Assembly: GCA_947494715.1 (NCBI GenBank)
Contig: CANLWG010000010.1
Location: 1-64,000 of the forward strand
Direction of reading: 5' to 3'
Length of the DNA: 64,000 bases
Source of the DNA: an uncultured Flavobacteriaceae bacterium
GTDB taxonomy: Bacteria > Bacteroidota > Bacteroidia > Flavobacteriales > Flavobacteriaceae
In this document: in pieces, positions 28,357 to 44,000 of the stretch
Layout: each line of letters begins with the position of its first letter
Numbering within the stretch: position 1 is the first letter of the stretch
Notes under the pieces: generated by a model
Told to the model about the DNA's origin: nothing
The model's input: the letters and a program-made list of their open reading frames with translations, nothing else
The model's database searches: none
Translations under genes and position numbers: made by a program

Positions 28357-31300
28357 ATGAATCAAAAACGAGATTACAATTCGTTAAGGCCCAAAGGGAA
28401 GTTTTCTTTCTTAGCCATTGGGTTTTTGTCGATGTTGATTTGTTTGGGAACACAATTGGCCCAGGCAAATGATGAAATTACAATTGAAACGGAAACTATT
28501 TTTCAAACCACCGTTTCTGGTACCATTACGGATTCCGGAGGAGTTCCGCTTCCTGGGGCCAACGTTGTTGAAAAAGGAACAACAAATGGTACCCAAACGG
28601 ATTTTGATGGAAATTATACCTTAAATGTTGATGCCAATGCCACTTTGGTAATCAGTTATTTGGGTTTTCAAACACAGGAAGTCTCCGTTAACGGACAATC
28701 TTCCATTAATGTTACTTTGCAGGATGATGCCGCGGCACTGGACGAGGTAATCGTAACGGGTTACCAAACGGAAACCAAGCGGGAAACTACCGCGGCCGTT
28801 TCCATTGTAAAGGCCGAGGAATTGGCGGCCGTACCATCCGGTAACGTAGAACAGCAGTTGGCCGGTAGGGTCGCTGGGGTAACCGTAATAACGAACGGTC
28901 AGCCCGGTACGGCATCCCAGATTCGGGTACGTGGTTTTGGGGCCTTTGGAGGTAACCAACCTTTATATGTGGTAGATGGTGTTCCCATTAACAACATAGA
29001 GTTTCTTAACCCGGACGATATTGAAACGACAACGGTACTTAAGGATGCCGCCGCAGCCTCTATTTATGGGGCCAGGGCCGCCAATGGGGTAATTGTCTAT
29101 ACCACCAGACAAGGAAAAAAAGGAGCCAGGAAGACCAATTTTAGGTTAAATGTACAAAGTGGGGTTCAAGACCCCAACTCGGCGGGTTCTCCACAAATGA
29201 TGAATCCCCGGGATATGGCCCGGTATACGCACATTGCCTATGAGAACAATGCGAGGGCTACCAATTCTCCAGTACAGTATACGCACCCGCAGTATGGTTC
29301 TAATCCCACCCCGACTTTTCCCGACTACCTCTTAGTGGCCGGATTGCCAGGGGGAGATCAAAGTGGTGTAAGGGGAAGTATTGATTTGGCCGCGATGAGA
29401 GCGGCATTTGAAGCTGATCCTAACAACACCTTTTTAATTCGGCCGAATTTGGCCGGTACCAACTGGTACGATGAGGTTACCCGTATCGCACCCATAAGCC
29501 GTGTAAGCCTGGGAATTGATGGAGGTACGGATAAAGGCCGTTTTGCCTTTGGCTTAAGCCTACAGGACCAATCGAGTATCATGTTGGAAGGTGAATTTAA
29601 GCGTTATACCGCCCGTTTCAATTCAGAATGGGATATAACCCCCTGGCTATCCTTTGGGGAGAATTTTCAGATGACCTATCGCTCCGTAATAGGACAACAG
29701 GGTGATGGCGATGGTGCTGGTATTGCTGATCAAGAATCGCAGATACTAGCGGCCTATCGTATGCCTACCATCCTTCCGGTACGGGATGAATTCGGTAGTT
29801 TTGCCAGTACCCGGGCAGGAGGTTTCAACAATCCCCGTAACCCGGTACGAATTAGGAAGCAGAACGAGGGTGATAATGTTGGTTTCTCCATTCAGGCCTT
29901 CGGAAATGTGTTTGCGGAATTAAGACCGGTAGATGGCCTATCGATCCGGTCAAGTCTTGGTGGGCAATATTTTAACACCACTGGACAATCTTATGGTTTC
30001 CGTTATCTGGGGGATTCCGAGCCCCAGGCCAGTGACAACTTTAGCGAAGGTTGGGGTTATGGTTTTCAATGGATTTTTACAAACACCATTAGTTTTGAAA
30101 AGACCTATGGAAAGCACAGTATCAGGGCATTAGGTGGAATAGAGGCTATTAATGGTGCTAGTAGCCCGACTACGCCTCCCCGAGGTAGATTTATATCCGG
30201 TTCTGGTATCAACCCATTTTCAACGGATATCAACTTTATTACCATGTCTACCGTACAAAGCCCAGTAGTCTCTGGGCAAATTGCTACTGGGGTTAACTTC
30301 AGTTCCTTATTCGGAACATTGCGTTATAGCTTTGATGAAAAGTACACTATCAACGGGGTTATCCGTCGTGATGGTTCCTCTGTTTTCGGTGAGAACAATC
30401 GCTACGGAGTTTTCCCTGCGATATCAGGTGGATGGACTGTTAGCTCAGAACCTTTTATGCAAAACCAGAATTTAATTAACAATCTGAGGGTCCGTGCAGG
30501 TTGGGGAGAAATGGGGAATTCCAACAATGTTTCGCCTACCAATCAGTTTTCCTTGTTTGCATCCAGTTTTCAACGAACTTTCTATCCCATAGAAGGCCAG
30601 AACAGTGGTGCCAATGAAGGTTTTGCCCCTAGTACTATCGGAAATGCGGATGCCAAATGGGAGACCAGTACTACTTTGAACATTGGTTTTGACCTTGGCT
30701 TATGGGACAATCACGTAGAAGTGCAGTTTGACTGGTGGAAAAAGGATACAGAGGACTTACTCTTTCAAATACCCTTGCCCGGCGTAACCGGTTTTGGGGC
30801 GGCCGCACCTTCGGTTAACGTGGGAGCCATGTTGAACCAGGGAGTTGATTTTCAAATCGTAGGTAGAGGAAATATCACGGAGGACCTTTCGTTCCAGGTA
30901 ACCACAAACCATAGTTTCCTTAAAAATGAGGTGGTGAGATTTGCACCCGGTATAGATTTCTTGGAGGGTCAAGCTTTTAGAGGTATTTCCCCAACCAGAA
31001 ACCAAGTCGGTAGACCGCTTTCCTCTTTCTTCGGATATAACGTTATCGGATACTTCAACAGTGAGGAAGAAGTGGCCAATTCGCCCGCCCAGGAGGGTAA
31101 AGGATTAGGACGTTTCCGCTATGAGGATGTTAATGGGGATGGTGCCATTACTCCGGACGATAGGGTCTATTTAGGAGACCCTATACCCAACTACTCAGGT
31201 GGTGCAACAATTGAATTGAATTATAAGCAATTGAAGATGGAAATGTTCTGGAACTGGTTTGTAGGGAATGAGATTTGGAACCAATCCAAATGGTTTAGGG

Positions 31301-31692
31301 ATTTCTTTGGCACCTTTGAAGGTTCTGCTAAAGGGGTTGCCGCCTTCCGATCTTGGACCCCGGAATTGGGTAACAATGCTGCTGCACCAATATGGGAGAG
31401 CGAGACCAATTTAAGTACCAGTGGTGCCGGGAATTCCTGGTATGTTGAGGATGGTTCCTATGCAAGGTTGCAACGTTTGGCTTTGGTCTATTCTTTTGAG
31501 GACAAAGTTAAGGATGCATTGGGCCTAAGTACTTTTGAGGTAGGCCTTTCCGCCAATAACATTTGGACCATAACCAACTATAGTGGTTTAGATCCAGGAG
31601 TCGGTGGAGACGTGGATACCCGTTTTGGAATTGATGTTGGGAACTTTCCAGTAACTCCACAATATTTGATTACCGTAAATCTTGGTCTCTAA
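28357..31692 (+). CDS. SusC/RagA-family TonB-dependent outer-membrane transporter
   Basis: 1111 residues. Signal peptide (cleaved near AQA, about 37); carboxypeptidase-like beta-sandwich (about 50-125) with SGTITDSGGVPLPGANV; TonB-box-like LDEVIVTGY (about 129-137); plug domain with the Sus-type VRVRGFGAFGGNQPLYVVDG and AAAASIYGARAANGV; then a 22-strand barrel ending in aromatic strands. It imports glycans or other oligomers with its SusD lipoprotein, encoded next. Being a regular SusC without an N-terminal signalling (STN) domain, it is not a FecA-type self-regulator. Substrate unknown. Confidence 0.96.
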   Translation: MNQKRDYNSLRPKGKFSFLAIGFLSMLICLGTQLAQANDEITIETETIFQTTVSGTITDSGGVPLPGANVVEKGTTNGTQTDFDGNYTLNVDANATLVISYLGFQTQEVSVNGQSSINVTLQDDAAALDEVIVTGYQTETKRETTAAVSIVKAEELAAVPSGNVEQQLAGRVAGVTVITNGQPGTASQIRVRGFGAFGGNQPLYVVDGVPINNIEFLNPDDIETTTVLKDAAAASIYGARAANGVIVYTTRQGKKGARKTNFRLNVQSGVQDPNSAGSPQMMNPRDMARYTHIAYENNARATNSPVQYTHPQYGSNPTPTFPDYLLVAGLPGGDQSGVRGSIDLAAMRAAFEADPNNTFLIRPNLAGTNWYDEVTRIAPISRVSLGIDGGTDKGRFAFGLSLQDQSSIMLEGEFKRYTARFNSEWDITPWLSFGENFQMTYRSVIGQQGDGDGAGIADQESQILAAYRMPTILPVRDEFGSFASTRAGGFNNPRNPVRIRKQNEGDNVGFSIQAFGNVFAELRPVDGLSIRSSLGGQYFNTTGQSYGFRYLGDSEPQASDNFSEGWGYGFQWIFTNTISFEKTYGKHSIRALGGIEAINGASSPTTPPRGRFISGSGINPFSTDINFITMSTVQSPVVSGQIATGVNFSSLFGTLRYSFDEKYTINGVIRRDGSSVFGENNRYGVFPAISGGWTVSSEPFMQNQNLINNLRVRAGWGEMGNSNNVSPTNQFSLFASSFQRTFYPIEGQNSGANEGFAPSTIGNADAKWETSTTLNIGFDLGLWDNHVEVQFDWWKKDTEDLLFQIPLPGVTGFGAAAPSVNVGAMLNQGVDFQIVGRGNITEDLSFQVTTNHSFLKNEVVRFAPGIDFLEGQAFRGISPTRNQVGRPLSSFFGYNVIGYFNSEEEVANSPAQEGKGLGRFRYEDVNGDGAITPDDRVYLGDPIPNYSGGATIELNYKQLKMEMFWNWFVGNEIWNQSKWFRDFFGTFEGSAKGVAAFRSWTPELGNNAAAPIWESETNLSTSGAGNSWYVEDGSYARLQRLALVYSFEDKVKDALGLSTFEVGLSANNIWTITNYSGLDPGVGGDVDTRFGIDVGNFPVTPQYLITVNLGL

Positions 31693-31757
31693 GGGATTGT
31701 GATATTATTGTGATATTTAGAAAAAAAATAATTCATATATTTAAGCAAAAATTAACT

Positions 31758-33530
31758 ATGAAAACTATGTATAGATTAAAAAAATTGCCAATTGCCATTG
31801 CTGCGCTCCTCATGTTCGGGGTCTCTTGTAGCGATGAATTTTTGGAAGTGGCCCCGACCGGATCCTTGGCCGGACCTCTTTTGGAAAACCAAGCGGGAGT
31901 AGAAGGATTATTAATTGGTGCGTATTCCGCTTTAAATGGCGTATTCGGTAACCGCTTTGAAGGACCCAATCATTGGATTACAGGTTCCATTTGTGGAGGA
32001 GATGCCAACAAGGGGACGGATTCCGGGGATTATTCCAGTATTAACCCGATTCAGAGATACGAGGCCAGCCCTGTTGATCCCAACAATGATTTTACACGTT
32101 TTTGGCAGGGTAGATATGAGGGTATTGTACGTTGTAATAATGTATTGTCTACTTTAGCGACCGCTGCTGACGGTATCCCTGCCAATGTGGTTTCCCGGCT
32201 TGCCGGAGAAGCTCGTTTTTTACGCGGACACTTCTATTTTGATTTGAAGAAGCATTTTAATAGCATCCCTTATTTTGATGAAACAGTGCCAACGGAGGAA
32301 GTTCCATTAATTCCGAATACTCCGGATGTTTGGGGTCAGATTGAGGCCGATTTTCAATTTGCCTTTGACAATGTGCCAGCTGATAACGGTGCTGGAAGGG
32401 TCAATAAATGGGCCGCTGCCGCCTATATGGGCAAAGCTAAATTGTATCAACAACAATTTGCTGAAGCTAAGCAATGGTTTGATGACGTCATTGAAGATGG
32501 GGTTACCTCTAATAATTTGAAGTATGCTCTGTTGGACGATTATGCACAAATTTACAATGCAGAAAACGACAACCATGCAGAAGCAGTTTTGGATGTGGAG
32601 TCTGCCAATAATACAGGGAATGTGCAAAATGCCAATGCATTTGATGATTTAAACTATCCATACAATACAGGTCCAGATGGCCCTGGTAACTGCTGTGGTT
32701 TTTTTCAGCCTAGCTTTGAACTGGCCAACTCTTTCCGTACCACCCCTGAGGGGCTTCCCCTTTTGGATGGTTCCTACAACAACTCGGAAAATGAAGTTCA
32801 AAATAGCTTTTTCCATGTTATTGTCAACGAGAACGATGAGGATACCTTTGTAGAGGATGCAGATCCATTAGACCCAAGAATAGATCATTCCATAGGTCGT
32901 AAAGGTATTCCGTATTTGGATTGGATCGAACATCCAGGATCAGCTTGGATTAGAAGTTTTCCATATGCCGGACCTTATTCTCCCAAAAAGTATATTTACT
33001 ATAAGTCTCAGGAGAATTCCTTTACGGACGGTAGTTCATGGACTAGAGGTTATGCAACTATGAATTACACCATTATTCGTTATGCCGATGTATTGCTGAT
33101 GGCTGCTGAGGCAGAAGTTGAACTAGGTAATTTCGAGCAGGCAAGAACGTATGTGAATCAGGTTCGCGCAAGGGCTGCTAATTCCGAGCATTGGGTAAAG
33201 GAAAATGACGATCCCGATGCTGATGCTGCCAATTATGTTATTGCGGAGTATCCGCCATCTCAATTTGCAACACAGGAAGATGCTCGTACTGCCGTTCGTT
33301 TCGAACGTAAGTTGGAGCTTTCCGGTGAAGGTCATCGTTTCTTCGATTTGGTTCGTTGGGGTGTAGCTGCAGATGTATTGAACGATTATCTCTCCTATGA
33401 GTCCCAGTATTTGGTGACCAAATTTGGAGGGGCTAGCTTTACTGCAGGAAAAAATGAGTTATATCCCATTCCTCAATCACAAATAGATATTCAAGGATCT
33501 GATATATTGACTCAGAATCCTGGATACTAA
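31758..33530 (+). CDS. SusD/RagB-family substrate-binding lipoprotein
   Basis: 590 residues from the ATG at 31758, chosen because it gives a direct lipoprotein signal peptide ending VSC (Cys24). An ATG at 31710 would add 16 charged residues. It has the SusD helical TPR-like fold: an early FLEVAPTGSL segment, a GEARFLRGHFYFDL motif, NYTIIRYADVLLMAAEAEVE and the late GEGHRFFDLVRWG signature. It caps the SusC barrel and binds the glycan at the cell surface. A strong terminator follows. Confidence 0.95.
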   Translation: MKTMYRLKKLPIAIAALLMFGVSCSDEFLEVAPTGSLAGPLLENQAGVEGLLIGAYSALNGVFGNRFEGPNHWITGSICGGDANKGTDSGDYSSINPIQRYEASPVDPNNDFTRFWQGRYEGIVRCNNVLSTLATAADGIPANVVSRLAGEARFLRGHFYFDLKKHFNSIPYFDETVPTEEVPLIPNTPDVWGQIEADFQFAFDNVPADNGAGRVNKWAAAAYMGKAKLYQQQFAEAKQWFDDVIEDGVTSNNLKYALLDDYAQIYNAENDNHAEAVLDVESANNTGNVQNANAFDDLNYPYNTGPDGPGNCCGFFQPSFELANSFRTTPEGLPLLDGSYNNSENEVQNSFFHVIVNENDEDTFVEDADPLDPRIDHSIGRKGIPYLDWIEHPGSAWIRSFPYAGPYSPKKYIYYKSQENSFTDGSSWTRGYATMNYTIIRYADVLLMAAEAEVELGNFEQARTYVNQVRARAANSEHWVKENDDPDADAANYVIAEYPPSQFATQEDARTAVRFERKLELSGEGHRFFDLVRWGVAADVLNDYLSYESQYLVTKFGGASFTAGKNELYPIPQSQIDIQGSDILTQNPGY

Positions 33531-33660: not shown

Positions 33661-33963
33661 TCACCCCTCCTTGATTCTATCAATCGTAGTTTTTAGGTGC
33701 ACAATTATTTCTTCCTTGGCCGATAAAAGTTCTTTTAGCAGGGCCAACTCATCAGAGTTTGATTTGGACTTTCTATCTGGAATTTGAGAGTCCGTCAATT
33801 CCCTTATCCGCCCCAGATGCTTCCCTGAGGGGATTACTTTTTTTGATTCCCAATTGGAAACAGTAGCCTGCTGTACACCAACCAATCTACCAAAATCAGC
33901 TTGACTAATCCTTTTTTCTTTTCTGTATTTTAGAATTGAAATATCTATCTCTCCTTGGGGCAT
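33661..33963 (-). CDS. XRE-family HTH regulator with C-terminal coiled coil
   Basis: 100 residues. The N-terminal helix-turn-helix of the Cro/C1 type (about 10-60) has ISQADFGRLVGVQQATVSNWES, an archetypal recognition helix. The C-terminal third (about 70-100) is Leu/Lys/Glu-rich and looks like a dimerising coiled coil. It is the only regulator gene beside the peptide cluster and faces away from it, so control of the three precursor genes is likely but inferred. A 12-bp direct repeat lies upstream of its start. Confidence 0.85.
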   Translation of the reverse strand: MPQGEIDISILKYRKEKRISQADFGRLVGVQQATVSNWESKKVIPSGKHLGRIRELTDSQIPDRKSKSNSDELALLKELLSAKEEIIVHLKTTIDRIKEG

Positions 33964-34006
33964 AACGAAATGATTTAAAAGTCAAAAAAGAAAAATATCC
34001 CATGTT

Positions 34007-34060
34007 AATATAAGAAAAATATAAATATGTAGTAATAAACTTATTAATAATATAAGAAAA
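34007..34060. promoter_or_regulatory. 12-bp direct repeat, candidate operator of the HTH regulator
   Basis: AATATAAGAAAA occurs at 34007-34018 and again at 34049-34060, exactly 42 bp apart (about four helical turns). This lies in the gap between the HTH gene and the first precursor. The spacing and place suit cooperative binding by a small HTH dimer. The region is very AT-rich, so chance repetition remains possible. The rest of the 34061-34335 gap shows no gene. Confidence 0.4.
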
Positions 34061-34335
34061 TAACAATGTTAAAACCGTATGTTATTTCTAATACGCCTAA
34101 CAATCCTATCTCTCATGTACTTCTATTCGTGCCATCGTTCCTATACTATTTATAACCAAGCTTATATGTTTCATTAACGCAATCCTACAATCTGGAAATC
34201 GGATTCCATAAATTGTTAGTGATAAAAACGAACCAGTTTTGGCTCTTGCGAAACGGAAGGTTGATATCAAAAATTTTAAAAATTCAGGATTTGCCTATCC
34301 TACCAAGATGTATAAACCAACAGGACTCAAATACA

Positions 34336-34387
34336 GATTTGCAGATCAGTTTATATAAATTATTTATTAATCTAAAAATTCGAAAAA
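34336..34387 (+). promoter_or_regulatory. Conserved upstream repeat, copy 1 (precursor 1)
   Basis: A 52-bp block running up to the ATG of precursor 1. It starts GATTTGCAGATCAGTTTATA and ends with an A-rich stretch before the ATG. Near-identical blocks precede precursors 2 and 3. TTTG at 34338-34341 followed 19 bp later by TATTTATT is a weak -33/-7 pair. The block probably holds the promoter and ribosome-loading region duplicated with each precursor. Confidence 0.7.
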
Positions 34388-34564
34388 ATGAAAAAGCTTA
34401 TTTCCAAATTCTCGGACAAATTGTTGTCCAAGGAACAGTTAAAGACGGTTAAAGGAGGATCTACTCCCTATTGTTTTTGTGTCGGCAGCGGTATTTTTAT
34501 TGCCTGCCCTTGGGGTTATACTGATGGCAGTCAGGTACCCTCAGGAGTAGGTGGTTGCCCATAA
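34388..34564 (+). CDS. Double-glycine-leader Cys-rich peptide precursor 1
   Basis: 58 residues. The leader (1-24) starts MKKLISKFSDKLLSK and ends KTVKGG, the typical cleavage site of C39 peptidase exporters. The predicted core is 34 residues with four Cys (29, 31, 40, 57), begins STPYCFC, is Gly-rich and ends GGCP. The leader is nearly identical to those of the two neighbouring precursors while the core differs, as in peptide families with one maturation and export machine. Product class unknown: disulfide-rich and possibly glycosylated, given the neighbouring genes. Confidence 0.88.
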   Translation: MKKLISKFSDKLLSKEQLKTVKGGSTPYCFCVGSGIFIACPWGYTDGSQVPSGVGGCP

Positions 34565-34865
34565 ACAAACGTAAAATATGTCTAGTTCGGTTTGTGCTAA
34601 AATAGGAATACCTTAATTGGTCTTTTCTCGAATCCTGATAACTTTTATCCGGACCGTGGCTAATAGACTTAAATTTTGCGAAACTTCAGAATATTTTGGT
34701 ACGATAGGATTTTGAAGTTTCATGTTTTAAAGCGTTCAAGTACAAATCATTTAAAGTTAATGATATCATGGTGCGGAAGTAAGAACGTTTAAAACATGGA
34801 GCCGCGCCAACACCAGTACAGTAAGTTAAACATTAGCACTGTATGGTAAACCTGTTTATGTTATG
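34565..34865. other. Gap between precursors 1 and 2
   Basis: About 300 bp with no coding sequence I can support. It ends in a nested block of inverted repeats (34680-34798) and then leads into the upstream repeat of precursor 2. No clear T-tailed terminator follows precursor 1. Confidence 0.6.
34680..34798. repeat. Nested inverted-repeat block between precursors 1 and 2
   Basis: Three inverted repeats lie back to back. GAAACTTCA (34680-34688) pairs with TGAAGTTTC (34713-34721). CATGTTTTAAAGCGTTC (34721-34737) pairs with GAACGTTTAAAACATG (34783-34798) with a single bulge. ATCATT (34746-34751) pairs with AATGAT (34759-34764) inside the second. No T tract follows. It could be a structured RNA, a protein-binding site or a relic of a small mobile element. 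Confidence 0.6.
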
Positions 34866-34918
34866 GATTTGCAGATCACTTTGTATAAACTATTTATTAA
34901 TCTTAAAAATTTGAAAAA
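34866..34918 (+). promoter_or_regulatory. Conserved upstream repeat, copy 2 (precursor 2)
   Basis: 53 bp matching copy 1 with a handful of changes (for example GATCACTTTG for GATCAGTTTA), ending at the precursor 2 ATG. Confidence 0.7.
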
Positions 34919-35092
34919 ATGAAAAAAATCATTTCAAAATTCTCAGACAAATTGTTGTCCAAACAACAACAGAAAACCGTCAAAGGAGGTACACCCTATT
35001 GTTTTTATATGGGATCACCAGTTGATTGCCCACCGGGATGTAGTCCAGGATCACAACTTACTCATCCAACCAATCCCTGTTCGTGGTGGTAA
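34919..35092 (+). CDS. Double-glycine-leader Cys-rich peptide precursor 2
   Basis: 57 residues. The leader (1-24) starts MKKIISKFSDKLLSK and ends KTVKGG. The 33-residue core begins TPYCFY, has four Cys (28, 37, 41, 54), is rich in Pro and Gly and ends in two Trp. The Cys spacing differs from precursor 1, but the Thr-x-Tyr-Cys start is shared by all three cores. A perfect 16-bp-arm terminator follows 20 bp after the stop, so this gene is probably its own transcript. Confidence 0.88.
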   Translation: MKKIISKFSDKLLSKQQQKTVKGGTPYCFYMGSPVDCPPGCSPGSQLTHPTNPCSWW

Positions 35093-35111
35093 TATGATAA
35101 TCTTTTGAATC

Positions 35112-35147
35112 AATTTGATCCCTTTTTAAAAAGGGATCAAATTTTTT
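35112..35147 (+). terminator. Strong terminator after precursor 2
   Basis: AATTTGATCCCTTTTT (35112-35127) pairs perfectly with the complementary arm through 35143 and is followed by a T run to 35147. It separates precursor 2 from the transporter remnant and precursor 3. Confidence 0.85.
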
Positions 35148-35157
35148 AAAAATTAAA

Positions 35158-35484
35158 GTGATATTAAGCATATTACAATCATATGTAAGTCATTTCTATG
35201 CCGTTTTAATGACTGGCGACATACTTCAACGTATAAATGACCATAGCTATATTAAGCGCATACTTGCCACCTCATCCTTAAATGATTTGTTTTCCATGAC
35301 AGACCTATTCATTTTTGGATTGGTCCCGGCCCATTATAGTTTCTTGATTTTCGGTATGTCCTTGATAGATAACATTCCATACTTAGAAAGAATCATTGCT
35401 TTCTTGAAAAAGTATAGGTACTTGTACTATATACTGTATGAATCACCAAGGGCTGAATTAAAATCAATGCTAAAAAGTAAATGA
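35158..35484 (+). pseudogene. Remnant of a peptide-exporter ABC transporter gene
   Basis: The open frame encodes a piece clearly homologous to residues about 271-344 of the intact C39 exporter in this cluster: 51 of 74 residues are identical by hand count, from MTGDILQRINDHS to the FLKK segment, and the DNA is similar too. Nothing matching the peptidase domain, the other helices or the ATPase is present, so this is a decayed internal fragment. The ends (before about 35175 and after about 35430) show no match. A small membrane protein is possible but unlikely. Confidence 0.85.
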
Positions 35485-35783
35485 CAAACAATTTTAACGG
35501 ATATTACAAAAACCAGCTAATCATTATTTAACAAAGTTTTAAGCACATTACCAAATTATTATTCATTACTTTATGTAAGTAAAATACTATTATATTTATA
35601 AGAATTACGAAATAATTTTTTCATATTATTCTAGCTTCTTACTTATACATGTAACATATTAAAATTACAAAGGTAAGTGTGAACATTTTTGAATAATCGT
35701 ACGGAAGAAGTTTTGCGGTTCGATTTTATCAAGGTCTTAATCCATTTTATATTGGACATGTGGCCACCGAGACAATTCAAGAG
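35485..35783. other. AT-rich gap before precursor 3
   Basis: About 300 bp of very AT-rich sequence with no credible gene and no clear further exporter remnant. An imperfect inverted repeat based on ACATGT (from 35647 and near 35757) is the only structure noticed. Confidence 0.5.
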
Positions 35784-35836
35784 GATTTGCAGATCAGTTT
35801 ATATAAATCATTTATTAACCTTTAAAATTTGAAAAA
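35784..35836 (+). promoter_or_regulatory. Conserved upstream repeat, copy 3 (precursor 3)
   Basis: 53 bp starting GATTTGCAGATCAGTTTATA, identical to copy 1 over that stretch, ending at the precursor 3 ATG. Confidence 0.7.
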
Positions 35837-35983
35837 ATGAAAAAAATCATTTCAAAATTCTCGGACAAATTGTTATCGAAACAGAAATTGAAAACAGTAA
35901 TGGGCGGTACTTGTTATTGTAATTGTGGAGATTATCCATTCCCAGTACCTTGTGGGACTGACTGTCAAGCCTACTGTTGGTAG
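35837..35983 (+). CDS. Double-glycine-leader Cys-rich peptide precursor 3
   Basis: 48 residues. The leader (1-24) starts MKKIISKFSDKLLSK and ends KTVMGG, with Met in place of Lys before the GG. The short 24-residue core starts TCYCNC, holds six Cys (26, 28, 30, 39, 43, 47) and ends in Trp. An even number of Cys in all three cores (4, 4, 6) fits full disulfide pairing. It is closest to the glycosyltransferase gene, separated from it by a hairpin. Confidence 0.88.
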   Translation: MKKIISKFSDKLLSKQKLKTVMGGTCYCNCGDYPFPVPCGTDCQAYCW

Positions 35984-36028
35984 TATTGAGTGAAATATAA
36001 CAAGGCCCACCGAGTAAATCGTTTTCTA

Positions 36029-36061
36029 ATTTGGCTCTGTATTGTACAGGGCCAAATCTTT
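36029..36061 (+). terminator. Hairpin between precursor 3 and the glycosyltransferase gene (leaky terminator or attenuator)
   Basis: A 13-bp stem with one G-U pair (arms 36029-36041 and 36045-36057) and a 3-nt TTG loop, followed by CTTTT. It ends only 11 bp before the glycosyltransferase ATG at 36069. A partial terminator here would keep precursor mRNA in excess over maturation and export genes, as is known for many bacteriocin operons. It also argues against the earlier in-frame ATG at 36042, which lies in the loop. Confidence 0.7.
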
Positions 36062-36068
36062 TGAGCAG

Positions 36069-37316
36069 ATGAAACTATTCGTTATACAACCTTTTTTAAG
36101 CCATCTTTATCCTGTTTTTGGTTTGGCCCATGAACTTAAAGACCAAGGTGAAGATGTTTTATTTACCACAACTCCCCCAATTGTTCCCACCCTGCAAAAT
36201 GAGGGGTTCAGGTTCCAGGAATTTGATTACTTATCCGAATATATGATTAAAAATTATAAGTCGTTTCTCGGTTTGTTCTTAAAAAGCTTGATTTCAAAGG
36301 CGTATTATTCAGAACGAAAAAATGAATTTGAAAGTGCATTTCGGCATACCCAGCTACTTATAGCTGAATACAAGCCCACTCATGTGTATATAGACCAGAG
36401 TTTAGCCGAATACTATTTTTTCTTCAGACCTTTTGTTTCGAATATAACCATTGTCCATACCAAAGTATACTCGGGTAAGACAAAAGATATCCCTCCAATG
36501 ACCTCTAACTTTATTCCCCGAACCGGAATAGTATCAAAAATGAAGATAAATCATTTATGGTTTAAGGAATTATTTAAACAAAGATTCCGAGAGTTGGTAC
36601 TAAAAATCGCTTTCCTGGGGAAAGATGAAACCTATTTCTGGAAGCAACACTGTAAGAAATATAGAATGGACTGGAAAAAACAAGTAGATTTAAATCATTC
36701 ATTGAACAGGGGCATCAAAAATGTCGAAAACCTTGTCCTTCTGCCCAGGGAATTGGAGTTCCCTAAATTTAAAAAACCTAAGCATGTACGTTTTTTTGAA
36801 AAATTATCCCCAAAAAACGAAAGTGCCTATTATACGCCAGCTTATTTAGAACTGAAAAGGGAATATCTCCTTGGAACTAATATCAAGATAATTTATATGG
36901 CCTTTGGTACCCTGGCACAAGGTTTAAAGGTTGCCAACTTCTTCAATACGGTCATTTCAATAGTAGAAGAACTTTCTGAAACCTTGCTCATCATTTCAAA
37001 AGGTAATCACATAATGGAATTAAAAAACGCTGACAACGTATTCACTTTTGATTATCTACCACAACAAGATGTATTGTCCCATACTAATTTGTTCATCACT
37101 CATGGCGGATTGGGTTCGGTAAAGGAGGCCTTCCATCACAACGTACCCATGCTAGTTGCACCCATGAATAAATTTATAGATCAAAATGGTAATGCAGCCA
37201 GAGTAAAGGCCAATGGACTTGGGGATTTTCTGGATATAGACAAGTATTCCAAAACGGAAGTAAAGGAGAAAATAAAGATGTTATTGCCCGACCACAAATT
37301 CCAAACCGCCATTTAA
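36069..37316 (+). CDS. GT1-family (UGT/MGT-like) glycosyltransferase
   Basis: 415 residues from the ATG at 36069. An N-terminal acceptor domain starts MKLFVIQPFLSHLYPVFG, and a C-terminal donor domain has the GT1 signature around residue 345 (THGGLGSVKEAF, then the VPMLVAPM and DQNGNAARV segments). GT1 enzymes move a sugar from a nucleotide sugar to small acceptors, lipids or natural products. It lies between the precursors and the exporter in one direction, so glycosylation of the peptides is the natural guess. Known glycocins use GT2-type enzymes, so this would be different. Acceptor and donor are unknown. Confidence 0.85.
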   Translation: MKLFVIQPFLSHLYPVFGLAHELKDQGEDVLFTTTPPIVPTLQNEGFRFQEFDYLSEYMIKNYKSFLGLFLKSLISKAYYSERKNEFESAFRHTQLLIAEYKPTHVYIDQSLAEYYFFFRPFVSNITIVHTKVYSGKTKDIPPMTSNFIPRTGIVSKMKINHLWFKELFKQRFRELVLKIAFLGKDETYFWKQHCKKYRMDWKKQVDLNHSLNRGIKNVENLVLLPRELEFPKFKKPKHVRFFEKLSPKNESAYYTPAYLELKREYLLGTNIKIIYMAFGTLAQGLKVANFFNTVISIVEELSETLLIISKGNHIMELKNADNVFTFDYLPQQDVLSHTNLFITHGGLGSVKEAFHHNVPMLVAPMNKFIDQNGNAARVKANGLGDFLDIDKYSKTEVKEKIKMLLPDHKFQTAI

Positions 37317-37354
37317 AAGCAATAAAGAAAGTCTAAAAATTTTCAAAGCGGTCT

Positions 37355-39565
37355 ATGCTAAAAAAGTTTCCACATTATACCCAACCCGATAGCAAGGACT
37401 GCGGCCCTACCTGTCTCAAGATCATTGCAAAACACTATGGCAAAACTGTTTCCCTTCCTTACATTCGGGAAGTAAGTGAAACTACACGATCCGGGAGCAG
37501 TCTCTTGGATCTAAGCGATGCTGCAGAGCACTTGGGTTTTAAAAGCCTTGGTGTAAAACTTTCCTATAAAAGTCTTTTGGATGCACCCTTACCCTGTATC
37601 CTACATTGGAACAAAGTTCACTTTATAGTACTGTATGCAGCCGAAAAGAGTAAAAAAAATGGGGATATACTCAAGACTTCCGATCCGGGTTACGGGTTAT
37701 TGAACCACTCCAAAGAAGAATTGTTAAAATCATGGATTGGTAATAACGCCGATGAGAATACCGAAGAAGGTGTAGCATTACTCCTGGAACCTACCCCCAA
37801 GTTTTATGAAAGTGAATATGCTGATGAACAGGTAAAGCCTTTGGGGTTATCATTTTTAACAAGTTACCTGATCAAATACAAAAGATTTATCTGGCAGCTT
37901 GTTATTGGTCTTCTGGCCGGCAGCTTATTGCAGGTCATCTTCCCGTTCTTGACCCAAAGTGTAGTAGATGTAGGAATCAAAAACCAGGATATTAATTTTG
38001 TTTACCTTATTCTATTTGCGCAGTTGGCCCTATTTCTGGGGAGGACAGGGGTGGAAGTAATCAGAAGTTGGATATTGTTACATCTCAGTACACGAATAAA
38101 TATTTCCCTGGTATCCGATTTTTTTATCAAGCTCATGAAACTCCCTATATCCTTTTTTGACTCCAGAATGACAGGCGATATACTTCAGCGTATAAATGAC
38201 CATAGCCGAATTGAGCGCATACTTACGACCTCGTCGTTGAATGTCTTGTTTTCTATGATAAATGTAGTGGTATTCGGCTTGGTCCTAGCCTATTATAGTT
38301 TCTTGATTTTCGGTATATTTTTAATTGGCAGTATCCTATATTTTGGCTGGATCATTATTTTCTTGAAAAAACGTAGGGATTTGGACTATAAGCGGTTTTC
38401 CCAAATAAGCCAGGAACAAAGCAGGGTGATTGAGTTGATTAATGGAATGCAGACCATAAAATTACACAACGCCGAAAAAAAGAAACGCTGGGGATGGGAG
38501 TTTCTACAGGCCCGTCTGTTCAAAATTTCCATTGAAAGCCTCGCCTTGGAACAATACCAAAGTGTGGGTTCCGGCTTTATAAATGAACTGAAGAATATTC
38601 TAATTACCGTACTTTCCGCAAAACTGGTTATTGATGGGGAAATCACTTTAGGGATGATGTTGGCCATTTCGTACATTGTCGGTCAGTTGAATTCCCCTAT
38701 TTCCCAATTGATCAATTTTATTAAAGAAGTTCAGGATGCCAAAATATCATTGGAACGTCTTGGCGAGATACACAATAAAAAAGACGAAGAAAGTGACATC
38801 CTGGATAAAATTACCGATGTGCCGGATAATCTGGATTTTAGTATCAAGGACCTATCCTTCAGGTATCGTGGGTCGGACAAATTTGTTCTTCAAAAGTTAA
38901 ATTTACATATTCCCGCCCATAAAATTACGGCAATCGTAGGGGCCAGTGGTAGTGGAAAAACCACCTTGATGAAATTGCTATTGCGGTTTTATGAACCCTC
39001 ACAAGGCACAATAAAATTTGGCACCTATGATATCAGGAATATATCTCAAAAAGTCTGGAGGGATAAGTGTGGGGTGGTCATGCAAGAGGATTATATCTTT
39101 AATGATACTATAGCCAATAACATTGCCATTGGAGTGGACCATATAGATAAAAAGCGTTTGAAGTATGCGGTTGAAGTAGCAAATATTGAGGAATATATAG
39201 AAGAATTGCCATTATCCTATAATACAAAAATAGGAATGGAAGGCATTGGGTTAAGTACAGGACAAAAGCAAAGATTGCTTATAGCAAGGGCGGTGTATAA
39301 AAATCCGGATTACTTATTTTTCGATGAGGCAACCTCGGCACTTGATGCGAACAACGAAAAGGTAATTATGGAAAAATTGGAACGGTTCTTTAAGAACAAA
39401 ACGGTTATAGTAATCGCACACAGGTTAAGTACGGTAAAAAATGCCCACCAAATTGTGGTATTGGACAATGCCAAGATAGTAGAGATTGGAAATCATCAAG
39501 ATTTGGTAAAGCAACAAGGGGCATACTTCAATTTGGTAAAAAATCAATTGGAATTGGGAAATTAA
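37355..39565 (+). CDS. Peptidase-containing ABC exporter (C39 peptidase, TM domain, ATPase)
   Basis: 736 residues. The N-terminal C39 domain (about 1-135) has DSKDCGPTC with catalytic Cys16, KVHFIVL with His89 and the SDPGYG aspartate Asp110. A six-helix ABC exporter membrane domain (about 165-450) follows, then the ATPase with Walker A GASGSGKTT (about 529), signature LSTGQKQR (about 632) and Walker B YLFFDEATSALD (about 653). Such exporters cut leaders after GG and export the core, matching the three precursors. Follows the GT gene by 38 bp; the adaptor gene begins immediately after its stop. Confidence 0.95.
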   Translation: MLKKFPHYTQPDSKDCGPTCLKIIAKHYGKTVSLPYIREVSETTRSGSSLLDLSDAAEHLGFKSLGVKLSYKSLLDAPLPCILHWNKVHFIVLYAAEKSKKNGDILKTSDPGYGLLNHSKEELLKSWIGNNADENTEEGVALLLEPTPKFYESEYADEQVKPLGLSFLTSYLIKYKRFIWQLVIGLLAGSLLQVIFPFLTQSVVDVGIKNQDINFVYLILFAQLALFLGRTGVEVIRSWILLHLSTRINISLVSDFFIKLMKLPISFFDSRMTGDILQRINDHSRIERILTTSSLNVLFSMINVVVFGLVLAYYSFLIFGIFLIGSILYFGWIIIFLKKRRDLDYKRFSQISQEQSRVIELINGMQTIKLHNAEKKKRWGWEFLQARLFKISIESLALEQYQSVGSGFINELKNILITVLSAKLVIDGEITLGMMLAISYIVGQLNSPISQLINFIKEVQDAKISLERLGEIHNKKDEESDILDKITDVPDNLDFSIKDLSFRYRGSDKFVLQKLNLHIPAHKITAIVGASGSGKTTLMKLLLRFYEPSQGTIKFGTYDIRNISQKVWRDKCGVVMQEDYIFNDTIANNIAIGVDHIDKKRLKYAVEVANIEEYIEELPLSYNTKIGMEGIGLSTGQKQRLLIARAVYKNPDYLFFDEATSALDANNEKVIMEKLERFFKNKTVIVIAHRLSTVKNAHQIVVLDNAKIVEIGNHQDLVKQQGAYFNLVKNQLELGN

Positions 39566-40858
39566 ATGGGAGATACTTTAGACAATATAAAATTACGTAG
39601 CGAAGAAGTTCAGGAGATACTTACCCGGGTCCCTCATTGGATGATACGTTGGGGAAATACCTTGTTCCTATCCCTGTTTATTTTAGTATTGGCCATTTCC
39701 TGGTTTATAAAGTATCCGGATTTAATAGTGTCCCAAGCGATTATTACTACCAAAACCCCTCCCCAAAAGGAATTTGCTATGGTGTCCGCCAAATTTGATT
39801 CAATACATGTGTCTGAATCACAAGAAGTTACAAAGAACACGGTCTTGGCGGTCTTGGAGAATACAGCCAATACAGAAGATGTTCTATATCTACAATCGAT
39901 AATTGATACTATTGAAATATCGGATAAATCCATTGAGTTTCCCTTTGACAACCTTCCCATTCTTTTTTTAGGGGATATCAATCAAAGTTTTGCACTGTTC
40001 GAGAACAGCTATTTTCAATACAAATTGAATAAGCGATTACAGCCTTTTTCCAACGAGGCAATTGCCAATGAGATTTCCCTTACCGAGCTCAGAAAGAGGT
40101 TATCAAGTCTAGAAGATCAATATGCCTTGAGCAGGTCTGAATTGGCTTTTAAGGAAAGTGATTTGGCACGTCATAAAGGCTTGTATGAAAAGGGGGTGAT
40201 TTCCCAACAAGAATATGAAAATAAAAAGTTGGAAGCATTATCCTCAGAGCGAAATACGAAAACCCTTGGTGCTTCAATTTCCCAAATCAGGGAAGCTATT
40301 GGAGGGGCCAGAAAAACGTCAAAAGAAACTGAGATTTCTAGGACCCGAGAAGAAATCCAATTACTGAAGACCACTATTCAAGCTTTTAATCAATTAAAAC
40401 AAGCGATCAAGGATTGGGAAAATACTTTTGTATTCAAGTCGGAAATTAATGGCAAGGTTTCTTTTATGAACTATTGGGACGAAAACCAGTCCGTATTTCA
40501 GGGTGATCTTGTTTTTACTATAATACCTTCCAATGATTTGGACTATGTAGCAAAATTGAAAACACCCTCACAAAATTCTGGCAAAATTGAACCAGGCCAA
40601 TTCGCAAACGTGAAACTGGAAAACTATCCTGAGACCGAATTTGGCATTTTAAAGGGAAGAGTAGAAAGTATTTCCATAACACCGGACAAGGACGGCTTTT
40701 ATCTCGTAGATGTTTCCTTGCCAAAGGAAATGATTACCAGCTATGGTAAAGAAATCGAGTTTAAACAGGAAATGCGAGGGGTTGCCGAGATTATTACCGA
40801 AGATCTAAGGCTTTTGGAAAGGTTTTTTTATCAGTTTAAAGAGGCTTTCGAAAGATAA
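39566..40858 (+). CDS. HlyD-family membrane fusion (periplasmic adaptor) protein
   Basis: 430 residues. One N-terminal membrane helix (about 28-48), a beta domain, a long coiled coil (about 150-290) and a C-terminal beta-barrel part with GQFANVKLENYP. It joins the inner-membrane exporter to an outer-membrane channel; no TolC gene lies nearby, so a shared channel must be used. The ATG directly follows the exporter stop (TAA ATG). Last gene of the peptide island. Confidence 0.92.
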   Translation: MGDTLDNIKLRSEEVQEILTRVPHWMIRWGNTLFLSLFILVLAISWFIKYPDLIVSQAIITTKTPPQKEFAMVSAKFDSIHVSESQEVTKNTVLAVLENTANTEDVLYLQSIIDTIEISDKSIEFPFDNLPILFLGDINQSFALFENSYFQYKLNKRLQPFSNEAIANEISLTELRKRLSSLEDQYALSRSELAFKESDLARHKGLYEKGVISQQEYENKKLEALSSERNTKTLGASISQIREAIGGARKTSKETEISRTREEIQLLKTTIQAFNQLKQAIKDWENTFVFKSEINGKVSFMNYWDENQSVFQGDLVFTIIPSNDLDYVAKLKTPSQNSGKIEPGQFANVKLENYPETEFGILKGRVESISITPDKDGFYLVDVSLPKEMITSYGKEIEFKQEMRGVAEIITEDLRLLERFFYQFKEAFER

Positions 40859-41025: not shown

Positions 41026-44000
41026 ATGAAGAATTTGATTTTCGGTAATCCCACACCTTTTGGGATTGTACTCCTAATACTCCTTGCCTCTTGCGGACAA
41101 AAGGACACTCCCTCTACCCTTTTTTCAAAGATTGAACCCGAACAATCCGGACTTCATTTTAACAATCAACTTGTTGAGAACGATTCCATAAATATTATGG
41201 ATAATGAGTTCGTATATAACGGTGCCGGGGTGGCTTTGGGTGATTTAAATGGTGATGGATTGGACGATATTTTTTTTGCCGGAAACCAAGTGGACAACAA
41301 ACTGTTCTTAAATAAAGGGAATTTAAAATTTGAGGACATTTCCCAAAAGGCCCAAATAGGAAAACCGGATTCGCTTTTCTGGTCCTCTGGGGTTTCTATT
41401 GTTGACGTGAATGCCGATGGCAAAAAGGATATCTATGTTTGTAATACCTTTTACAAAGATTCGTTGCGTCGAAAAAATCTACTCTATATCCATCAAGGGA
41501 TTAATGATGCAGGCATTCCTGAATTTAAGGAAATGGGTGAAGCGTATGGTATTGCGGATTATACCTATTCATCCCACTCACAGTTTTTTGATTATGACAA
41601 TGACGGGGATTTGGATTTGTTTATTGGCGTAAATCGAATTGAAGGTATTGACCCCACTGAATTTCGTCCGTTGGAAGACGATGGTACATCAATGAGCAGG
41701 GACAAACTTTACGAAAACCAATGGAACGATAGCCTACAACATCCATATTTTGTGGATGTCTCCGAAAAAGCAGGCATCCGTTACCATGGTTATAGTCACA
41801 GTACCTTAATCAATGATTTCAATGAAGATGGCTGGTTGGACATTTATGTTGCCAATGATTTTTTGAGCAATGACCTGATGTATATAAATAATCAGGATGG
41901 TACATTTACCAACCGTGCCGGTGAAGTATTTCAACATTTTAGCCTTTCCTCTATGGGCAGCGATCTGGCGGATATTGATAATGATGGGCGCATGGACATC
42001 TATACCACGGAAATGCAACCCTATTATAATAAACGTAAAAAATTGTTTCAAGGCCCCAGTAGTTATCAAAAGGAAATCTTTACAAAAAAATATGGATATG
42101 AAAACCAATATGCACGAAATACGATGCAATTGAATTTGGGTATCAATCCAGAAACCGGGAATCCCATTTTTGGGGATATGGGGATGTATGCCGGAGTACA
42201 GGAAACGGATTGGAGTTGGGCTCCTCTTTTTGCCGATTTGGATAATGATGGCTGGCAAGACCTATTTATCACTAATGGTTTCCCTAAGGATGTAACGGAT
42301 CGAGATTTCGGGGATTTTAGGATAACGGCCAGTCGTTTGGTGAGCAAGGAAACCCTGATTGCTGCCATTCCTGAGATAAAAATTCCAAATTTTGTTTTTA
42401 AAAATCAGGGGGATTTAGGTTTCAAGGATGTAACCCAAGAATGGGGCTTAAACTTTGGTACATATTCCAGCGGAGCTGCTTATGGAGATTTGGACAACGA
42501 CGGTGATCTGGATTTGGTCATCAATAATATTAATGAACCCGTCCTACTGTTGAGAAATAATTTGGACCAGATAGCTTCCAACAACAATTACCTCCGTTTA
42601 CAGTTAATCGGGAAAGACGAAAACCCGGCAGCTATTGGTGCGGTTGTGGAGCTTCATACAAAAGGTATGATTCAAAAGAAGTCAGTGCTATCGGGACGTG
42701 GTTATCTTTCACAACCGGAAAATATATTGCATTTTGGGTTAGGAAATGCTTCGGTCGCCGATAGTATAATCATTCATTGGCCTGGAGAAGGTAAGCAGAA
42801 GTTAACAAATGTAAATATAGATACGATACTACAAATAACATATAATACTTCGGCTTTGCAAGTAGATCATGTGAGCGACAAAATAGGAAAAATTGATTTT
42901 CAAGAAGTCTCCAAAAACTATAATCTTCATCATCTGAGTGAGGACCATGATTTCATTGATTTCAATTTTCAGCGGACCCTTCCCCATAAGTTTTCACAAT
43001 ATGGGCCTTCATTGGCCATCGGTGATGTTAACAACGATGGTTTGGAAGATATGTTTGTAGCCGCAAGTAGAAAATTTAAGGAGAAGTGGTTTATACAACA
43101 GAAAGACGGTACGTTCAAACAAAGCGAAGTGGCCTATAAGAAAGACGTTGAATTACAGGAGGAGGATGCTGGGACGTTACTTTTTGATGCCGATACCGAT
43201 GGTGACCTGGATTTATACATTGCCAGAGGATGCGGACAATATCCGGAAGGGCATGAGTTTTATAAAGATATACTTTTGATCAACGATGGAAAAGGTAACT
43301 TTGCGGAAAGCGAGGAATCGCTCCCGAACATTACTGCAAATTCCTCTGCTGTAAAAGCCACGGACTACGACCGGGATGGTGATTTAGACCTATTTGTGGG
43401 GAGTAGGGTTTTGCCTTTTTCCTATCCTATGGCAGATCGTTCTTATATTCTGCGAAATGAGAGTACAAAAGGCAATCCTAAATTTGTTGATGCAACCAAG
43501 GATGTTTTCCCCGAAACCAGTCCGGGATTGATAAGTGATGCCCTTTGGACCGATTTTAATGGTGATTTCTGGCCGGATCTGATTTTAGCCGGGGAATGGA
43601 TGCCTCTTCGTTTTTTTCGCAATGAAAACGGAAAATTGATAGAAGTCACAAAAGATACCGGTATCGGTGACAATATGGGATGGTGGAACAGCCTCGCAGC
43701 AGCCGACCTCGACAATGATGGCGATATTGATTACATCGCTGGAAACTCGGGGAAAAATATATATTTTAAGGGCAGTGCGGACGAGCCAGTTCGGGTTTAT
43801 GCCAAAGATTTAGACGGGAATGGTACCATAGATCCCCTAATTTCCTATTACTTAAGGGATAGCATAGGTACAAGAAAAGAGTATTTATACCATCCTTGGC
43901 AAGACGTAACCAAGCAATTCGTGGGTATCCGTAAAAAGTTCAATTCATTCGGGGCGTTCGGGGAATCTACCCTTCCTGAAATGTTTTCGGATGGGCTTTT

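Follow-up and report, generated by a model that had tools for sequence, protein, structure and literature searches.

A cysteine-rich peptide cluster with a GT1-type glycosyltransferase and a predicted glycosylation site at a front tyrosine in an uncultured Flavobacteriaceae bacterium

The window analyzed here is a stretch of 64,000 nucleotides (nt) on contig C10 (CANLWG010000010.1) of the 5.97 Mb genome of an uncultured marine Flavobacteriaceae bacterium (GCA_947494715.1). Its positions 33661 to 40858 hold a compact peptide cluster, in which three precursors with a double-glycine (GG) leader lie together with a GT1-type glycosyltransferase, a peptidase-containing ABC exporter (PCAT) and a periplasmic adaptor. 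The genes, open reading frames (ORFs) and gene relics of the cluster are listed below (aa, amino acids; genomes, contigs and loci are numbered with the prefixes G, C and L).

33661-33963, minus strand: XRE-type helix-turn-helix (HTH) regulator (PF01381, HTH_3, 1.7e-9)
34335-34358, plus strand: probable relic of a VKOR 3′ end, RFADQFI-stop; 12/14 nt as in the VKOR tail of G020/G133, 53 nt from the precursor 1 ATG
34388-34564, plus strand: precursor 1; leader ending LKTVKGG, core beginning STPYCFC, 4 Cys, Tyr at core position 4
34865-34888, plus strand: probable relic of a VKOR 3′ end, GFADHFV-stop; 13/14 nt, 54 nt from the precursor 2 ATG
34919-35092, plus strand: precursor 2; core beginning TPYCFY, 4 Cys, Tyr at core position 3
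35158-35484, plus strand: ORF containing a piece of the transmembrane region of a second C39 exporter; 66% over 79 aa, exporter residues 267-345, E 2e-28
35783-35806, plus strand: probable relic of a VKOR 3′ end, GFADQFI-stop; 13/14 nt, 54 nt from the precursor 3 ATG
35837-35983, plus strand: precursor 3; core beginning TCYCNC, 6 Cys, Tyr at core position 3
36069-37316, plus strand: GT1-type glycosyltransferase (UDPGT/MGT), 415 aa; PF00201 7.5e-16, above cut-off; TIGR01426 2.9e-27, below cut-off
37355-39565, plus strand: C39-peptidase ABC exporter (PCAT); PF03412, PF00664 and PF00005
39566-40858, plus strand: HlyD-family periplasmic adaptor; PF13437 4.3e-11

The original prediction for this DNA named three GG-leader Cys-rich precursors, a GT1 enzyme, a C39 exporter and an HlyD adaptor, and ORF calls together with profile matches confirm all of them. 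A GG precursor beside a C39-ABC exporter and an adaptor, the arrangement of PCAT-exported peptides, is found both in the window and in orthologous layouts of relatives. The island is beyond chance, because 138-nt repeats with 62-84% identity are common to its three precursors, other species have orthologous loci, and the ratio of nonsynonymous to synonymous differences (pN/pS) relative to G002 is 0.06-0.17 for the HTH regulator, GT1, C39 exporter, HlyD adaptor and precursor 1. The GT1 gene, with a value of 0.17, is under purifying selection. By GT1, the closest named relatives are Ulvibacterium marinum (84%) and an Ulvibacterium metagenome-assembled genome (77%), Ulvibacterium being a genus of Flavobacteriaceae; a scan of genome contigs for the locus returned two loci, both of Ulvibacterium. 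As also predicted, no radical SAM, LanB/LanM or YcaO match was found among the eight cluster proteins scanned, and tailoring of these kinds at the locus was rejected.

Relative to precursor 1, identity is 64% for precursor 2 and 61% for precursor 3 and lies mainly in the 24-residue leader. The precursors had been read as one leader followed by different cores. The common leader holds; the cores, in contrast, follow a pattern that can be aligned with nine precursors from four other genomes. In this alignment Tyr28, Cys29 and Cys57 occur in 12/12 sequences, while Cys31, Cys40 and Pro41 are nearly invariant. Judged by the alignment, the window cores are one family, not three unrelated peptides. 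TIGR04149 is matched by 12/12 aligned precursors at E up to 0.05, NF047798 by 7/12, and the CCPGW putative bacteriocin family by 1/12 (2.1e-6). The window precursors reach 23.5, 14.8 and 21.4 bits on TIGR04149, all under the curated cut-off of 25, which the best of the 12 (9.3e-6) may reach. The absence of a radical SAM enzyme, noted above, refers to the eight window cluster proteins, the rest of the genome not having been searched.

The start of the GT1 gene is more likely the ATG at 36069 than the TTG at 36042, since the ORF of the G002 ortholog begins at that ATG. The possibility that the enzyme is truncated was rejected; it has the same end in G001 and G002. His12, Asp109 and the donor-site residues are conserved, as in GT1 enzymes of the UGT/MGT type, and the nearest PDB profile match is UGT 202A2 (9.8e-26). 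Glycocin glycosyltransferases are of the GT2 type. The predicted contrast with them stands: PF00201 and TIGR01426 are matched, and no PF00535 (GT2) match was found up to E 1.

The first line of evidence for a peptide-directed enzyme is gene linkage. Searches of 60 + 299 genomes found GT1 at an identity of at least 60% only in G000, G001, G002, G020 and G133, and the precursor profile gave strong matches in the same five genomes of 397, with four weak matches elsewhere. Precursor and GT1 are neighbors in all five, and the C39 and HlyD genes follow in four. Absence of GT1 from most related clusters, which had been named in advance as telling against the idea, is therefore not what the close family shows. 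More widely, GT1, as the tailoring candidate of a GG-leader/C39 island, stands beside this precursor family in all five genomes and was seen at none of 16 further Flavobacteriaceae loci (L117-L132, chosen for a VKOR match or a weak precursor match). Because these loci lack it, GT1 linkage is a trait of a subfamily.

At about 30% identity, GT1 recurs in the family containing Spirosoma oryzicola, mostly beside GG precursors with other cores. A profile search found it in 24/222 genomes of this second family, which was recognized because contig G986:C6 is identical to an S. oryzicola plasmid across 15,263 bases. There the order is VKOR, GT1, precursor, a family A glycosyltransferase, C39 and HlyD, with recombinase genes close by; the precursor is absent from the PLSDB gene table of the plasmid. 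In a phylum sample of 395 genomes, two further GT1s pass 1e-35, each with a VKOR gene, in one case split, and GG peptides next to it. Altogether, 33 GT1 loci were examined, namely the seven first found and every new site (26) that the second family yielded at E up to 1e-60. These span two families; a GG Cys-rich precursor lies close by in 21, and 17 have a VKOR fusion, a protein considered further below. The 12 without such a precursor are L169, L172, L173, L175, L178 and L180-L186, where Gly/Ala-rich GG peptides at several of L181-L186 were left out of the precursor count; L179 holds a GT1 fragment only, at a contig end. Conversely, GT1 lies within 1.5 kb at 16 of 30 loci (L187-L216) taken as top-scoring VKOR matches, which are no random sample.

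A FastTree phylogeny of 47 GT1s groups 20 Tyr-core-linked enzymes with those of L169, L172, L173 and L175, next to L178 (support 0.77 with L178). This set, hereafter the Tyr clade, keeps His12 in 20/20 and Asp109 in 19/20 of the Tyr-linked enzymes. Ten weaker Flavobacteriaceae GT1s outside the 33 (L027-L036; 24-38% identity, E 4e-15 to 4e-29) fall outside the clade, and they were rejected as members because no family precursor adjoins them and 8/10 lack the catalytic His, kept in only two; their large neighbors, judged by eye, are NRPS-like. Two further groups deserve mention. At L219, L225, L227, L232 and L236 a more distant GT1 clade lies directly beside VKOR fusions, with looser-pattern precursors at 4/5 loci, three of them with an early Tyr. 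At L181, L182, L185 and L186 another GT1 group is accompanied by ABC transporters matching C39 exporters at 26-29% and by small Gly/Ala-rich GG peptides that resemble two-peptide bacteriocins and mostly lack an early Tyr.

The second line of evidence is the position of tyrosine. Among the first 17 precursors, 17 have a Tyr within core residues 1-4, an idea noted before loci L161-L186 were fetched. Under a strict pattern (GG, two or more Cys and an MK start), 16/17 of the new unique cores from those loci carry Tyr within six residues and 14/17 within four; the miss is L185. Over all strict unique cores, Tyr in residues 1-6 occurs in 34/35 GT1-linked and 6/40 GT1-free cores, and in residues 1-4 in 31/35 and 4/40. 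Counted by lineage, defined by a neighboring marker protein at 60% identity, the figures are 12/13 versus 4/17 (p 2.3e-4) and 9/13 versus 2/17 (p 0.0021), respectively. Of the four cut-offs compared (4, 5, 6 and 8 residues), 6 and 4 are the ones given here. Tyr density in GT1-linked cores is 0.176 in residues 1-6 and 0.047 later, compared with 0.025 and 0.045 in controls.

Identical cores were counted once (L161 repeats L115). Four ORFs were excluded before the strict counts: two lying more than 6 kb from GT1, L168:555 without an early Tyr and L177:14794 with Tyr 1, and two that overlap longer ORFs. Controls are GT1-free loci, some in genomes with GT1 elsewhere, and one of them, L214 (early Tyr, in one count only), lies near a contig end, so that a GT1 could lie beyond the assembled sequence. 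Other GT1 clades contribute two of the 13 GT1 lineages, L185 (a miss) and L219 (a hit). The strict pattern omits control cores with non-MK leaders, two of which have an early Tyr (L086, L125). A looser recount that includes them gives 37/47 versus 9/55 (p 1.7e-10). Within the Tyr clade the looser figure is 33/35, and for its new cores from L161-L186 it is 16/18 within six residues and 14/18 within four. The early-Tyr rule is thus limited to one GT1 clade and fails for more distant ones.

Related cores with and without GT1 are instructive as well. Seven alignments join GT1-linked and control cores at E up to 1e-3. Two of them favor the rule: L162 (GT1) and L202 are 67% identical over 33 residues, with the early Tyr only in L162 (DDYGAG versus LLDG); L116 (GT1) and L208 are 53% identical over 32 residues, and the front segment TDSYGG is present only in L116. 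No GT1 was found at the longer loci L218 and L223. Two weak cross-group alignments, L115/L118 and L176/L131, complete the comparison with the three described next.

Several observations weigh against a tyrosine-directed enzyme. Three of the seven cross-group alignments pair two early-Tyr cores (L115/L214, L171/L214 and L167/L132), and six strict control cores (L089, one of L123, one of L127, L132, L217 and L229), or nine looser ones, have an early Tyr without GT1. At Tyr-clade loci, L168:555 and L171:6369 lack it, and at other GT1 clades just 4/12 looser-pattern cores have it. No GG Cys-rich precursor was found at the Tyr-clade loci L169, L172, L173 and L175 or at the adjoining L178, and in G020 the GT1 gene has no adjacent exporter; the nearest one is elsewhere, next to two VKOR fusions. 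Kinship among the precursors inflates the counts, and Fisher tests assume an independence that such peptides lack. The looser recount slightly lowered our confidence. With these points taken into account, we consider it quite probable that GT1 acts on the peptide and, with less assurance, probable that it acts on the early Tyr, at core position 3 or 4, as gene linkage and Tyr co-occurrence suggest. With similar confidence, the cluster is best described as serving to make secreted peptides that are closed by disulfides and are predicted to carry a sugar on a Tyr close to the start of the core.

A glycocin-like enzyme, which would modify a core Cys, Ser or Thr despite a fold different from that of glycocin enzymes, is the alternative that survives best, and we regard it as unlikely. 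The genetic logic of precursor, glycosyltransferase, C39 transporter and thioredoxin-like proteins is the same as in glycocin clusters (PMC12457901), and Thr or Ser is found near the Tyr in many cores. However, no Ser or Thr is universal in residues 1-6 (lineage-weighted frequencies are 0.42 for Ser and 0.33 for Thr, versus 0.92 for Tyr), and the number of cysteines is even in 34/35 strict GT1-linked cores, as opposed to five in glycocins and seven in thermoglycocin. Even numbers prevail also in 38/41 strict control cores and, under the looser pattern, in 46/47 GT1-linked and 50/55 control cores; the window cores have 4, 4 and 6, not the odd count of glycocins. An even count fits full disulfide pairing and leaves no Cys spare for an S-linked sugar, and S-glycosylation of an unpaired Cys was rejected on this ground. 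Of the products first envisaged, possibly glycosylated and disulfide-linked, an S-glycocin-like form thus appears unlikely, and a Tyr close to the N-terminal end of the core is a better candidate for the modified residue.

About as unlikely is a GT1 that does not act on the peptide at all, serving instead in producer protection, as in macrolide self-resistance, or in unrelated small-molecule glycosylation. Matches to macrolide-type glycosyltransferases, including the self-immunity OleI family, exist, every one below cut-off; no immunity gene was recognized among the cluster ORFs scanned, and some GT1 loci have no precursor that we could find. Such a role leaves the Tyr co-occurrence and the two core pairs (L162/L202 and L116/L208) unexplained. 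Least probable is an unmodified disulfide bacteriocin of the bacteroidetocin kind, with GT1 as a passenger and Tyr as an aromatic motif for target binding: bacteroidetocins do combine a GG leader, four Cys, a thiol oxidoreductase and a C39 transporter (PMC6671954), and GT1 is missing from L117-L132 (0/16), yet GT1 is under purifying selection (pN/pS 0.17), GG precursors accompany it at 21/33 loci in two families, and 34/40 GT1-free cores lack an early Tyr.

GT1 had been taken as the sole tailoring candidate. This holds at the window locus, which seems to have lost a second maturation enzyme that relatives possess. In G020 and G133 a gene of 541 or 542 aa with C39-like, VKOR and thioredoxin domains ends about 30 nt before the precursor. 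Eight fusions that were aligned have four VKOR and two thioredoxin Cys in common. The C39-like call is backed by PDB profiles, which match bacteriocin transporters. In ten aligned fusions this domain lacks a Cys at the exporter catalytic column and a His at the exporter His column; two of the ten have a Cys one column off. These fusions are the likely makers of peptide disulfides in relatives. VKOR fusions occur in 10/100 sampled Flavobacteriaceae genomes and in 61/222 genomes of the G596 family. Of the 16 loci L117-L132, four of which were picked for a precursor hit, 12 have GG peptides and 13 a C39 exporter; for the 20 loci L217-L236 the numbers are nine (strict pattern) and 13, respectively.

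At the window locus, the fusion gene seems to have been lost and its tails retained. The last VKOR codons (GFANH..stop) precede 9/10 Ulvibacterium precursors with 12-14/14 nt matching, 53-55 nt from the ATG and with the stop at the same position; at the tenth the match is weak (9/14 nt, 41 nt from the ATG). All three window relics keep the in-frame stop. In a control, 24 of 5000 random pieces of 110 nt, drawn from the window and two loci, reach 12/14, some of them probably those very sites. These stretches are probably tails of a VKOR gene formerly there, and they may have become part of the promoter. The ORF at 35158-35484 was rejected as a genuine gene in favor of an exporter relic, and G002 has a 39-residue GT1 relic (49% identity) between precursors. 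The locus looks like a worn array of such units.

The window genome has VKOR paralogs on contigs C5, C6, C16 and C19. Three of them, unlinked to the window locus, adjoin a GG Cys-rich peptide and another candidate tailoring gene:

C5, L086, 3584-7390: GG Cys-rich peptide, VKOR fusion, PF04488 (sugar-binding DXD region)
C19, L088, 5620-8738: GG Cys-rich peptide, VKOR fusion, GT2
C6, L089, 2890-6170: GG Cys-rich peptide, VKOR fusion, DUF6734

DUF6734, for which a glycosyltransferase function is a guess, is also near VKOR genes in L128 (scanned) and L120 (by sequence likeness only). At L224 a DUF6625 protein (7961-8815), possibly a tailoring enzyme, lies between VKOR fusion and C39 exporter. The fusion is split into two ORFs near the C39-like/VKOR joint at L088 (5620-7214), L116 (8635-10292) and L163 (5539-7231), either by frameshifts or as natural two-gene forms. 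Separately, L090 on contig C18 of the window genome is a decayed lanthipeptide-like locus with a LANC_like gene, a weak Lant_dehydr_N fragment, a GT2 gene and an exporter remnant carrying six stops. As for the surroundings of the window cluster, the HTH regulator has orthologs (94% and 86%) at the same place in G001 and G002, and none was found adjoining the loci of G020 and G133. The flanks (28357-33530 and 41026-44607) hold genes which we take to be SusC/SusD-like and FG-GAP-like; they are kept in G001, G002 and G020, and the G133 cluster sits at another place.

Leader removal at GG coupled to core export is the established logic of C39 exporters. Read in this light, the precursor would be made with a 24-aa leader ending in GG, and in the cytoplasm, before export, GT1 would glycosylate the Tyr at core position 3 or 4 with a nucleotide sugar as donor. 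The leader would then be cut off at GG and the core exported by the C39 exporter, which would work with HlyD and a pore in the outer membrane whose gene lies elsewhere. All Cys of the core would be paired outside the cell by a VKOR-type enzyme, in relatives probably the membrane VKOR-thioredoxin protein. The C39-like domain of the fusion, devoid of catalytic residues, may hold the leader. In the window genus, where the VKOR gene is seemingly lost from the locus, paralogs elsewhere may serve in trans. An antagonistic or signaling peptide is the likely product, a role suggested by bacteroidetocins.

Comparison with described systems shows both likenesses and differences. Bacteroidetocins, class IIa-like peptides of Bacteroidetes (PMC6671954), share with it the GG leader, four Cys, C39 transporter and phylum. 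Their described four-gene region has no glycosyltransferase, and their leaders are of 15-16 aa versus 24 aa here. Their locus includes a thiol oxidoreductase gene; an oxidoreductase is seen here only as the VKOR fusion of relatives and as the probable window relics. Glycocins (sublancin, glycocin F and thermoglycocin; PMC12457901) are alike in being small disulfide peptides with a dedicated glycosyltransferase, a C39 transporter and thioredoxin-like proteins; those before thermoglycocin have five Cys, thermoglycocin seven and a predicted one eight. The window cluster is unlike them in its GT1/UGT-type enzyme, even Cys, early conserved Tyr and Gram-negative hosts. Cacaoidin, a Streptomyces lanthidin, also carries a sugar O-linked to Tyr, which makes it alike as a ribosomally synthesized and post-translationally modified peptide (RiPP); its three glycosyltransferases are GT-2, GT-2 and GT-4, and the part of its description at hand gives no GG-leader/C39/VKOR unit (PMC8068269).

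Other scaffolds may bear the same mark. In G511 (L241; one of 3/287 matching genomes in a class sample), a GT1 relative lies in a grasp-with-spasm locus, where TIGR04192 narrowly exceeds its cut-off and TIGR04193 falls short, with two Cys-free GG cores, each with Tyr at position 4 plus further Tyr; the window cluster, in contrast to such graspetide loci, has no ATP-grasp or SPASM gene. On a Flammeovirga pectinis plasmid, a 27% identical GT1 and a C39 exporter are encoded together with a LANC_like protein and a GG peptide of 51 aa, whose Tyr falls at core position 5 (position 4 when the cut is placed one Gly further on). It is possible, though we hold this only tentatively, that one Bacteroidota clade of UGT-fold GT1s is a portable Tyr-capping module that O-glycosylates the front Tyr of secreted RiPP cores on different scaffolds: disulfide peptides oxidized by VKOR in Ulvibacterium and Spirosoma, the graspetide of the grasp-with-spasm locus in G511 and possibly a LanC-like system in Flammeovirga.

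Described bacterial RiPP glycosylation is sparse, comprising glycocins, NAI-112 and cacaoidin in a 2021 count (PMC8068269). Glycosyltransferases near Bacteroidales RiPP genes are mentioned in PMC10352776, and the VKOR phylogeny of PMC4555120 does not mention C39 or a peptidase. No GT1-linked Bacteroidota peptide cluster, nor a C39-like/VKOR fusion in such a role, was recognized in the literature as accessible, with subscription journals largely outside its scope. A GT1/UGT enzyme joined with a VKOR fusion and with disulfide cores that have a front Tyr was not encountered in that literature either, and there is a fair chance that it represents a distinct class.

If the proposed reading is true, a portable Tyr-capping module would define a glycosylated RiPP class apart from glycocins, and with it a VKOR fusion that oxidizes peptides under the guidance of the leader. 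As a compact enzyme marking the front Tyr of free-ranging disulfide cores, GT1 would be a useful tool for peptide glycosylation, and the Tyr-front GT1 signature would be easily mined for secreted peptides of environmental Bacteroidota. The fusion of VKOR with a C39-like domain, in turn, suggests how Bacteroidota direct a disulfide-forming enzyme to one peptide.

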